Below are positions 318-3,364 of a DNA stretch of 51,419 bases, one piece after another. A model generated the notes under the pieces. That model made no database searches. It saw nothing but the letters and a program-made list of their open reading frames with translations, and was not told where the DNA came from. Within the stretch, counting starts at the first letter, position 1, and every line of letters begins with the position of its first letter. This stretch comes from Desulfomonilia bacterium. GTDB taxonomy: Bacteria; Desulfobacterota; Desulfomonilia; UBA1062. The stretch spans positions 1 through 51,419 of the forward strand of contig DATCTV010000005.1 of the NCBI GenBank assembly GCA_036567785.1, written 5' to 3'. A program made the translations under genes and the position numbers.

Positions 318-1622
318 TTATAAAGGTTTTGAAACCCTTCCCATGAACAGAATGGAATGAGTCTTGATATCCCTGATGATGAATATAAAGGGCCTGTTTA
401 CATATATCTCGTCGGGCATGCTTTCCACGCCTGCATTAATGACGGTTACTGCTGCTGCCTTGGTGCCCCTCTCGTTAACATCGATAAAGGCCTTATGGAT
501 TATATCGTTGATCTTCAGTTGCCTGATTCCGGTTATCCCTGAGAAATCCGCAAATTCAGTGAACGGTTCAGGCATTCCCATTGAGGCAAGTATTTTTTTG
601 AGGTCAATTGAACCGCTGGAAAATTTGAATCTGGGCAGAGAAAGGGCGACTCTATCCGGATTCAGACTATCAACTATCCGGTCGATAATCCCTGTCGAAA
701 GGTTCATTTCGAATTCGGACATGCCTGATGCTTTGGGCATTATGACTAGCATGGACAGCTCCTTTCCGTCATAAGGCAGTTCGATTGCAGTGTAATCATC
801 ACCGATAAAACAAGGGAAGGTTTCCTGCTGACGCATCATGTCCACCTTGACAGGAGGTGCGCCTTCGGGAAAGAAATATCTTTTATCAGTAAGGGATTCG
901 TTGAATATCTTGTCCCAGGCTGCATTGAAATAGATCGTATTGACAAGAGCAAGTCTGATGTCTTCAAGACTGTTCCTGTCGATAACATTCTTTATCAATC
1001 CCGCTGTTTTGTCCTCAATCCACCTGTTTATGGCCAGTGCGCTCTCATCCGGTTCATTTTCAAAATCAAGTAAGCCGACACCCGTTCCGTAATAAAGCGC
1101 AAGTTTATCCAGGTACTGCTCAAGGACAGAAAATCCATTCTGCATGAAGAGCTGATTTGCGATACGGAGGCTGAATCCTTCACCATCCTGGCCTTTTGCT
1201 TCCCTGCCGCGGCTTGCAAGCGCAAGATCAAGCGAGTTGAACACAGGGTGCAGTTCATCCTGGGGTATGGGGAAATTGAAAACACTTGAGATTTCTTTCT
1301 CGGTATTGCCGACAGCGCCAGCATAGAGCATGGCCATTGCAAGGGATATGCTGTAGGGCGAAAATACGAGATTGCCCTCGGTGTCTGAAATTTTTTTATA
1401 GAGTCTAATTGCAAAATCGTTGTTTCTTTCGGAAAGCCCGGCCATTTCTTCGAGGCTTGCCAGGGGCGCAGCCCTTTCAAGGGATGATTTCTCCGACTTG
1501 AAATAATCGCTATTTTCCGCGCTGCTGTCTGAATATGTCGATTTGCTGCAGCCTGATAACCCAATAAATATTATCAGATACAGTATTGATAGAAAACTTA
1601 TCTTTAGCTTTAATCCGGACAT
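318..1622 (-). CDS. Serpin (serine protease inhibitor) lipoprotein
   Basis: A full-length serpin of 434 residues. Residues 1-25 form a lipoprotein signal with lipobox GLSGC (lipidated Cys25), followed by a 40-residue polar linker and the serpin fold. Fold marks are NLVFSPYSISLAMAMLYAGA (84-103), the breach strand around 226-236 and the C-terminal signature NRPFIFIIRD (409-418). The hinge of the reactive-centre loop reads ERGTKAAAVT (384-393), the small-residue pattern of inhibitory serpins. Counting from hinge Gly386 as P15 puts P1 at Glu400 and P1' at Ser401, an unusual acidic P1. The protein should sit on a membrane surface and trap incoming or stray proteases. It lies downstream of another lipoprotein gene on the same strand, with a stem-loop between them. 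The family is clear; the target and membrane leaflet are unknown. Confidence 0.93.
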   Translation of the reverse strand: MSGLKLKISFLSILYLIIFIGLSGCSKSTYSDSSAENSDYFKSEKSSLERAAPLASLEEMAGLSERNNDFAIRLYKKISDTEGNLVFSPYSISLAMAMLYAGAVGNTEKEISSVFNFPIPQDELHPVFNSLDLALASRGREAKGQDGEGFSLRIANQLFMQNGFSVLEQYLDKLALYYGTGVGLLDFENEPDESALAINRWIEDKTAGLIKNVIDRNSLEDIRLALVNTIYFNAAWDKIFNESLTDKRYFFPEGAPPVKVDMMRQQETFPCFIGDDYTAIELPYDGKELSMLVIMPKASGMSEFEMNLSTGIIDRIVDSLNPDRVALSLPRFKFSSGSIDLKKILASMGMPEPFTEFADFSGITGIRQLKINDIIHKAFIDVNERGTKAAAVTVINAGVESMPDEIYVNRPFIFIIRDIKTHSILFMGRVSKPL

Positions 1623-1659
1623 GGTAATCCCCCCTTATCAATTTATCTTATTTATTAAA

Positions 1660-1685
1660 ATCCCTGAGGGAAAACCCTCAGGGAT
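1660..1685 (-). terminator. Likely terminator between lipoprotein and serpin genes
   Basis: A perfect 11-bp stem (ATCCCTGAGGG and its complement) with a four-base loop follows the stop codon of the upstream lipoprotein gene on the minus strand. The sequence after it reads TTTTAATAAATAAG on that strand, a weak T-rich tail. Termination is probably partial, so the serpin could be read through from the upstream pair or have its own promoter. Confidence 0.65.
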
Positions 1686-1697
1686 ACGTGTGACGAA

Positions 1698-2522
1698 TCA
1701 ATAAGTCCTGTAGAGATTGATCGCCTTCCGGGCAATACCCCACCATTCGGGTTTTTCGGATGTTTCGTAAGGATTGTAGTAGCCCAGAAATGTGATGCCT
1801 TTGTCGTCTGCCGAGAAAAGCCAGTATTGGTTTATCGTGCAGCCGGAGGGGCAGTCTCCATCGCCTTTACGGAAAAGGTAATATCTTGTGTGATCATCAA
1901 GGTCTCCGGAGATTATACCACCATCGTAATCCGGGATATAAGGATATATGTTGGAGCAGTCGCCTATGTAGTAGTCGGGTTCGGCATATTTGACACCTGC
2001 AAGGGTTTCGTATTGCCCTGCAATGTATTTTGGATGAACCTTCCGGGCAGAGAACTCCAGAAAAGCCATACCATAGCCTATCGATGAGAGATTTGTTTTC
2101 TCAAGGCTGAACCTCTGATTGAGCCCGTCCCATTCATTATAGAGGCCTGCTGCAACGAGTTTGGCGGTGGCGTCATCGAATCCCACGATGATACTGCCGG
2201 GTGCCCAGGGCGGGAGGAATGTTATGCTGGTATCGGGTTCAGCATCTTTACCGGCTTCTTCGGTATATGAGCCGGACCTGATTGAAGTTATGTCATTTTC
2301 AAAGATTTCTGTAAGCTCACGTGGGGGATAGGTCTGGCCTGATACACACAGGGACATAAGCTCGAATTCTGATGCGGTACTGACTTCTTCGGGTTGCTGG
2401 ATATCGATCACGGGGTTTCCGGTTTCCGTGGCGCCGGCGCATCCCAGGAGCATAAATGCCGTGGACAAGGATATCAAGGCCGCCGATATTAATGACAACA
2501 CCCTTTTATTCCTGCAATCCAT
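1698..2522 (-). CDS. TETGNP lipoprotein with subtilase-prodomain-like region
   Basis: A 274-residue lipoprotein: signal 1-28 with lipobox LLGC (Cys28), followed at once by TETGNP (32-37). I recall this N-terminal motif from lipoproteins paired with TIGR02147 proteins. Residues 107-187 start with GSIIVGFDD and end with VKYAEPDYYI, the beginning and end typical of the inhibitory prodomain of S8 subtilases (fervidolysin-type). No catalytic Asp-His-Ser domain follows, so it is a free-standing prodomain-like module. The C-terminal part (211-274) has a GDCPSGC motif with two cysteines and several aromatic residues. It lies 14 bp after the TIGR02147 gene and is surely cotranscribed with it. The inhibitor role is inferred from motif resemblance; the lipoprotein call is firm. 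Confidence 0.7.
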   Translation of the reverse strand: MDCRNKRVLSLISAALISLSTAFMLLGCAGATETGNPVIDIQQPEEVSTASEFELMSLCVSGQTYPPRELTEIFENDITSIRSGSYTEEAGKDAEPDTSITFLPPWAPGSIIVGFDDATAKLVAAGLYNEWDGLNQRFSLEKTNLSSIGYGMAFLEFSARKVHPKYIAGQYETLAGVKYAEPDYYIGDCSNIYPYIPDYDGGIISGDLDDHTRYYLFRKGDGDCPSGCTINQYWLFSADDKGITFLGYYNPYETSEKPEWWGIARKAINLYRTY

Positions 2523-2536
2523 AATGCTCTCCCCCC

Positions 2537-3364
2537 CTAAATCTTTGATGTTAGCGGAAACAGCTGCAAGTTAAGCTGATACACCTGGTCGCAGTCTTTG
2601 TCCTCGCAGTACATTTTCATGATTTCCCTTCTAATGCGCGCCAGGTGCTCCTTCAATTCCTTTACCCTTTCTGAACGGATACTCATGGTTAATGACGTGA
2701 CGTCCCTTGTTTCAGGTTTGTGCCTTTCTATTGATTCTGTTGCAAGCCGGAGCATTTCTTTGTGGAAATTTGCAACGGTCAATGACTGGACCTCCGGGCC
2801 GGTTGTGATGAGACCGTCTTTCTGTCTGTAGCAGCCGTTTTCGTCCTTAGTTATCAGATCCAGTTCTTCAAGCGCCTTAAGCGCCTTTAATGCTTCCTTC
2901 GGGGTAATTTCAGGGGTGAGAGCTGATGAAATGCTCTCGGCATCCCATTTCAACTTCCCGAGTGAGACGAGTTCCCTTATGGCGGGGTAGAACCACTTCG
3001 AAAAATATTCATACTTGGCCTTATCCAGTTTACGAACCGATGAATCGCTTTTAAGAGATACGATCTTTCTGTAATAATGGTTTCTGTCCTCAAGCGTTTT
3101 CGACTGGTTCAGCCATACGAGGTTTTCGAAGTATTCCCTTTCGGTTTTCTTGAGGTCGAAACCCTTGCAGATTTTTGCCGCGCTTTCCTGTGTCAGATTC
3201 CTGCTGCCGGAAATGACGAGCTGCAGGAAGTTGGGCGAATTTATTCCGGCCCTGCGCGAAAAGCAACGATAAGAAAAATACCTGTCGGTCTTTTTCTTGT
3301 AAATGAACATGTCTTTCAGAAATGCCCTGTAGTCCATGTAATCATTTAAAACCGGTTGATTCAT
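2537..3364 (-). CDS. TIGR02147 family protein, putative regulator
   Basis: A 275-residue cytoplasmic protein with the family hallmarks: DYRAFLKDMF near the start, SYRCFSRRAGINSPNFLQLV (about 30-50) resembling a helix-turn-helix, then SGSRNLTQESAAKICKGFDL and the EREYFENLVWLNQSKT segment. The remaining two thirds are mostly helical, with a winged-helix-like stretch at about 130-190. Members are presumed transcription regulators, but I know of no characterised one. It heads the operon with the TETGNP lipoprotein and has a sigma-70-like promoter just upstream. The obvious inference is that it controls that lipoprotein and perhaps the serpin. Confidence 0.8.
   Translation of the reverse strand: MNQPVLNDYMDYRAFLKDMFIYKKKTDRYFSYRCFSRRAGINSPNFLQLVISGSRNLTQESAAKICKGFDLKKTEREYFENLVWLNQSKTLEDRNHYYRKIVSLKSDSSVRKLDKAKYEYFSKWFYPAIRELVSLGKLKWDAESISSALTPEITPKEALKALKALEELDLITKDENGCYRQKDGLITTGPEVQSLTVANFHKEMLRLATESIERHKPETRDVTSLTMSIRSERVKELKEHLARIRREIMKMYCEDKDCDQVYQLNLQLFPLTSKI

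Follow-up and report, generated by a model that had tools for sequence, protein, structure and literature searches.

Several described systems bear on the locus presented here. The surface-export signal of Bacteroidota lipoproteins and the Lol +2 rule are N-terminal address signals of lipoproteins, and the LPXTG/sortase and PEP-CTERM/exosortase systems are tag-and-partner systems. Xre-type regulators of the PrgX kind are acted on by lipoprotein-derived peptides, and miropin of Tannerella forsythia is a lipidated bacterial serpin. The regulator family concerned here is known as the NCBI model TIGR02147, which is of type 'paralog' and is given no function. In the open literature that was searched (most subscription journals and all preprints lay outside the search), nothing names TIGR02147, PF14394 or the tag described below, DUF4423 appears in one incidental table entry for Bdellovibrio, and no tagged partner lipoprotein of TIGR02147 is described.

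We analyzed a stretch of 51,419 nucleotides from a Desulfomonilia bacterium (assembly GCA_036567785.1, contig DATCTV010000005.1), referred to as the window, in which a TIGR02147 gene is followed by genes for a lipoprotein and a lipidated serpin. A sequence-only reading had proposed that the serpin and a subtilase-prodomain-like region of the lipoprotein together form a surface protease-inhibitor defense switched by the TIGR02147 protein. We now put forward, as the best explanation of the locus as a whole, that the window probably contains a single example of a widespread module of two genes, one for a regulator and one for a tagged lipoprotein.

The locus and its regulator

The three open reading frames lie on the minus strand in the order TIGR02147, lipoprotein and serpin (Table 1), with coordinates that agree with the earlier reading in the ORF listing, and the lipoprotein gene starts 14 bp past the stop codon of the regulator gene. 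Both of the downstream proteins have a signal peptide and a lipobox, read from the sequence as MLLGC-AGATETGNP in the lipoprotein and GLSGC-SKS in the serpin, as that reading had also held. It had recorded neither the GATETGNP tag nor the hairpin that separates the lipoprotein gene from the serpin gene.

Table 1. Positions in the window of the genes and features discussed in the text
Feature	Positions	Strand	Basis
TIGR02147/DUF4423 predicted transcription factor	2537–3364	−	profile match, structure model
Tagged lipoprotein, 274 aa	1698–2522	−	ORF and lipobox in sequence
Lipoprotein signal peptide, residues 1–27	2442–2522	−	sequence
Lipidated Cys28 of the lipoprotein	2439–2441	−	invariant in 53 aligned downstream proteins
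GATETGNP tag, residues 30–37, shortly after lipidated Cys28	2412–2435	−	sequence, motif counts
Tentative subtilase-prodomain-like stretch, residues 105–187 (PGSIIVGF ... VKYAEPDYYI)	1962–2210	−	ends match in order; below Pfam cut-off
C-terminal stretch, residues 190–274, with GDCPSGCxxxxYWxF motif common to a Gemmatirosa lipoprotein	1698–1955	−	
Terminator-like hairpin between lipoprotein and serpin	1656–1685	−	RNA fold
Lipidated serpin, 434 aa; judged a neighbor, outside the recurring module	318–1622	−	Pfam Serpin
Serpin reactive-center loop, residues 386–411	390–467	−	alignment; P1 by serpin numbering convention

The regulator is a clear member of TIGR02147 (Fsuc_second), as had been claimed, scoring 279 bits where the cut-off is 50 over positions 6–271 of 272, and it also matches Pfam DUF4423 (PF14394). 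A structure model built from 79 TIGR02147 sequences (pLDDT 85) places an Xre-like helix-turn-helix at residues ~10–95 and a winged helix at ~106–186, followed by long C-terminal helices. Searches with this model using Foldseek and VIA return Xre-type and ArsR/MarR-type regulators, with weak Foldseek E-values (none below 0.001) and middling Z values, and a sequence search of the PDB with the regulator profile gives sub-significant matches, among them C.BclI, a protein of the Xre type, aligned in the register expected. The model strongly suggests that TIGR02147 proteins are DNA-binding transcription factors; since the scores are middling and the two folds involved are small and common, this reading is supported rather than proven.

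A recurring pair of regulator and tagged lipoprotein

To place the locus in context, 80 further TIGR02147 loci were collected from 84,980 species genomes, which were scanned with patterns drawn from five aligned proteins; as that alignment is centered on the window, distant TIGR02147 branches are under-sampled. According to the sequence records, the loci come from Desulfobacterales, Fibrobacteres, Chitinivibrionales, Bdellovibrionales, Myxococcales and a Nitrospira. The adjacency of TIGR02147 and lipoprotein genes pointed out by the sequence-only reading is real and recurs widely among them, the lipoprotein gene lying downstream of the regulator gene with a gap that is usually no more than about 80 bp. 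The lipoproteins have in common a short tag, with a consensus of about GTETGNP or G(T/S)(E/D/G)xGNP, that is located a few residues past the lipidated cysteine, and the sequence in the window (C28-AGATETGNP) fits it except that Ala replaces the Gly that precedes Thr. Of 79 loci, 56 have the core of the tag, [TSV]xxGNP, within 360 bp downstream in the same orientation, where the same flanks lead one to expect 0.3 (one frame) to 1.0 (three frames), and most of the loci that lack the core have near variants such as GSSETTN, GTEVSNP, STGVGNP and GTEVQDP.

Little else is conserved. When 53 of the downstream proteins were aligned, Cys28 was invariant and Met1, G31 and N36 were nearly so, with no other conserved position and a mean column identity of 8%. 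The Pfam content of the bodies is correspondingly mixed (beta-propeller in eight, CarboxypepD_reg in five, others in one or two each). Indeed, regulators that are 50–58% identical to that of the window precede beta-propeller bodies, which shows that the bodies have been exchanged. TIGR02147 is rare in the phylum of the window, being above the cut-off in 5 of 395 genomes. Within the same family, all three TIGR02147 genes precede a tagged lipoprotein, and the other two partners are quite different from that of the window, being beta-propeller-type lipoproteins that start CxGGTEVGNP. Two further intact copies in the phylum precede CGGTETGNP and CAGGSDVGNP lipoproteins. The plasmid search found no TIGR02147.

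In Fibrobacterota, a single genome can have 55 or more TIGR02147 genes, 55 being the most that the search scored. Eight genomes (those of L043, L044, L056, L060, L061, L064, L070 and L108) show this extreme paralogue expansion, from 33 to at least 55 genes each, and the partner bodies in the expanded genomes are often CarboxypepD_reg-like. We read 40 paralogue loci by eye, nearly all from Fibrobacterota and their relatives, and in 38 of them an ORF that starts between −23 and +80 bp encodes a Cys and a beginning like that of a signal peptide, in most cases with a tag that has drifted (to SETTNG and others). The arrangement also varies: one TIGR02147 gene (L039) lacks a downstream lipoprotein, three loci (L075, L087 and L096) have a large untagged lipoprotein after TIGR02147 and then a third gene for a short lipoprotein in which the Cys is followed by TDVGNP, and elsewhere TIGR02147 copies lie in tandem.

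In the genomes searched, the tag is found almost exclusively behind TIGR02147. A degenerate DNA pattern for it was run over 29 TIGR02147-bearing genomes regardless of where TIGR02147 lies, and 30 matches were read, of which 21 are in frame shortly past a lipobox; 20 of these 21 are directly behind a TIGR02147 gene and the remaining one is truncated where its contig stops. The other nine are short frames, linkers or unrelated sequences, and none is a lipoprotein. Likewise, no strict match to the tag lies elsewhere in the flanks of the 80 loci. Given this confinement to TIGR02147 neighbors, a role as a general lipoprotein signal is rejected for the genomes searched. The third codon positions at the tag residues vary and synonymous codons are freely used, showing that selection acts on the peptide and ruling out a DNA operator inside the gene. 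It is true that the stretch past a lipidated Cys is generally rich in Gly, Ser and Asn, and that some members have only a loose version of the tag, so one might regard it as a mere flexible Gly/Asn linker in lipoproteins that follow TIGR02147 genes by chance. The count of 56 cores where about one is expected, together with the confinement of the tag both in the flanks of the 80 loci and in the 29 genomes, makes this reading scarcely credible.

Some other occurrences of the motif were noted. Two proteins contain the tag in tandem copies, GGSEVGNP twice in L052:6831–7892 and GGTEIGNP, GGTELGNP and GGVEIGNP in L054:6857–8122. Within the family of the window, other matches to the motif, such as L018, do not mark the start of a lipoprotein. 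The window's own genome (L019, G000:C43 at ~48513) encodes an FG-GAP-like repeat protein with GATEIGNP ~17 residues from the C-terminus followed by SSICFIMTAGL.

The lipoprotein body and the neighboring serpin

The body of the lipoprotein in the window has no family match apart from a sub-threshold contact with the Pfam Fervidolysin_NPro-like model (PF22148), which reaches residues 167–183 only (E 0.13, 13.1 bits against a gathering score of 21). With a profile that we built from PF22148 domains collected in the same phylum, the lipoprotein aligns at residues 106–121 (the start) and 170–186 (the end), in the right order and at approximately the right spacing, and its score was equaled by none of 3000 shuffles. 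Like prodomains of fervidolysin-type subtilases, the body thus starts PGSIIVGF and ends VKYAEPDYYI; it differs from them in scoring under the family cut-off, in a middle that remains unaligned, and in having no peptidase downstream. The earlier claim of a prodomain therefore stands for its two conserved ends in order and falls short in the score and the middle, and the accompanying claim that no peptidase domain follows proved correct. Comparison of the lipoprotein with the prodomain profile by hhalign gave a probability of 38 over 18 columns, and a single-sequence structure model (pLDDT 37) was too poor for a fold search. A Gemmatirosa lipoprotein that also lacks a peptidase has in common with it an AGVxxAEP region and a downstream GDCPxGCxxxxYWxF motif at 26.5% identity, and adding this relative to the alignment brought no clear gain. 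The likeness to subtilase prodomains is therefore plausible and not established, and protease inhibition by the lipoprotein would be a further step beyond it.

Relatives of the body are scarce. None was found by a separate pattern scan of 84,980 species genomes, a method limited to close relatives, nor at the 80 other TIGR02147 loci, and in 395 genomes of the phylum there was no convincing one, the matches having E-values of 0.01–0.05 and several having internal stops. A match in the same family (L003) was rejected as a chance one, its frame being antisense to a tRNA-synthetase-like ORF. The Gemmatirosa protein is plasmid-encoded (L251:1946–2848) and has a layout like that of the lipoprotein in the window, and the two may perhaps represent an unrecognized two-part family. 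In the phylum of the window, two genomes (G065 and G155) contain short ORFs, L224 and L247, that are little more than a subtilase-prodomain-like domain and lie beside another ORF in which this domain is also present, from which we judge that stand-alone prodomain-like proteins exist there.

The serpin itself is complete, as had been claimed: Pfam Serpin (PF00079, MEROPS I4) matches over positions 2–370 of 370 with 357.7 bits against a cut-off of 27 (E 1e-106). Its hinge, GTKAAAVT, conforms to the inhibitory pattern of small residues at P12–P9 and Thr at P8, with the one departure of Val at P9. By alignment and the serpin numbering convention, P1 would be Glu400 and P1' Ser401. The protein is probably a serpin of the usual inhibitory kind, and its predicted P1 Glu suggests a Glu-specific protease as its target. 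The hairpin in front of it has a perfect 11-bp stem, a UUUU loop and a U-rich tail, and folds at −21.4 kcal/mol (z −4.2) with none of 200 shuffles as stable; a simple terminator scan did not include it among its predictions, so the label of terminator is based on the fold. We therefore best read the serpin as a separate neighboring gene behind a terminator-like hairpin rather than as part of the module.

These results bear directly on the proposed two-inhibitor defense. The two lipidated proteins encoded on one strand, the full-length serpin with a hinge of the inhibitory type, and the presence in the lipoprotein of both conserved prodomain ends in order would all suit it. However, the 80 TIGR02147 loci collected from other genomes are all free of serpins, the prodomain match is under the cut-off in a body that does not recur, and the hairpin parts the two genes. 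Among 24 genomes of the same family, serpins are found in six, including that of the window, and TIGR02147 in three; the serpins of the other five lie apart from TIGR02147, and in G014, the only one besides the window's genome with both, they are on different contigs. The sequence-only reading had named the lack of a recurring neighborhood in related genomes as grounds for refutation, and for the pair of inhibitors this is what we observe. We consider this defense very improbable, and the pairing of two apparent protease inhibitors in the window to be mostly a chance neighborhood. In two genomes of the family (G020 and G021; L008–L011) the serpin matches are split over two frames, and these may be broken genes.

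Proposed role of the tag and relation to known systems

The pairing of regulator and lipoprotein, the tag, its near-exclusivity in the searched genomes, its selection as a peptide and the exchange of lipoprotein bodies are all observed, and from them we put forward a hypothetical mechanism for the module. The spacing of the genes, which ranges from 4-bp overlaps to 80-bp gaps, suggests that the TIGR02147 protein controls its own short operon, and each lipoprotein would then be switched by its own local regulator. We favor the proposal that the tag, which lies exposed next to the lipid, would act in the envelope as a signal for addressing, export or processing that serves this single class of lipoproteins alone. 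In the window, the body carried by this module is an orphan; it may resemble a prodomain and might bind a protease. The serpin, beyond the hairpin, is a separate gene.

The main rival is feedback on the regulator, in which TIGR02147 reads the tag by binding an unexported or released tag peptide in the cytoplasm that reports the export state or abundance of the lipoprotein. It is a serious rival because, unlike a general sorting signal, the tag is borne in the genomes searched only by lipoproteins whose genes neighbor that of the regulator, and it gains from the selection on the peptide and from the Xre-like helix-turn-helix, PrgX itself being found very weakly in the fold search. On the other hand, that PrgX match, with a probability of 0.12–0.16, does not amount to a peptide-binding fold, a tag behind the lipidation site should leave the cytoplasm, and the little variation of the tag across dozens of paralogues per genome would erase the specificity of each pair. 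We regard such sensing as possible but unlikely. Slightly more doubtful is its wider form, in which the tag would be the cognate partner of a cytoplasmic TIGR02147 protein that monitors lipoprotein synthesis or export, as part of a cassette with swappable bodies present in more than 50 copies in Fibrobacterota.

The tag predicts a lipoprotein signal of a new sort, whether for addressing, processing or sensing. A large and unstudied regulator family, TIGR02147/DUF4423, which ranges over Fibrobacterota (as many as 55 or more per genome), Bdellovibrionota, Myxococcota and Desulfobacterota, gains a defined partner and a one-line finding rule. As far as the open literature goes, this rule of a regulator with a GTETGNP-type lipoprotein, valid in several phyla, is so far undescribed. 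That regulator and tag stay together while the displayed protein changes bears on the annotation of surface proteins in predatory and cellulose-degrading bacteria.

Compared with the known systems, the serpin resembles lipidated bacterial serpins such as miropin in being a full-length serpin behind a lipobox and is set apart by its predicted P1 Glu; it is not tied to the regulator module. The tag resembles the Bacteroidota surface-export signal and the Lol +2 rule in being a short conserved sequence just past the lipidated Cys, but those apply to many lipoproteins per genome whereas the tag is limited to genes behind one transcription factor. Finally, like LPXTG/sortase and PEP-CTERM/exosortase, the module combines a short tag on unrelated bodies with a dedicated partner gene, except that the tag here lies at the N-terminus and its partner gene is for a predicted transcription factor instead of a processing enzyme.
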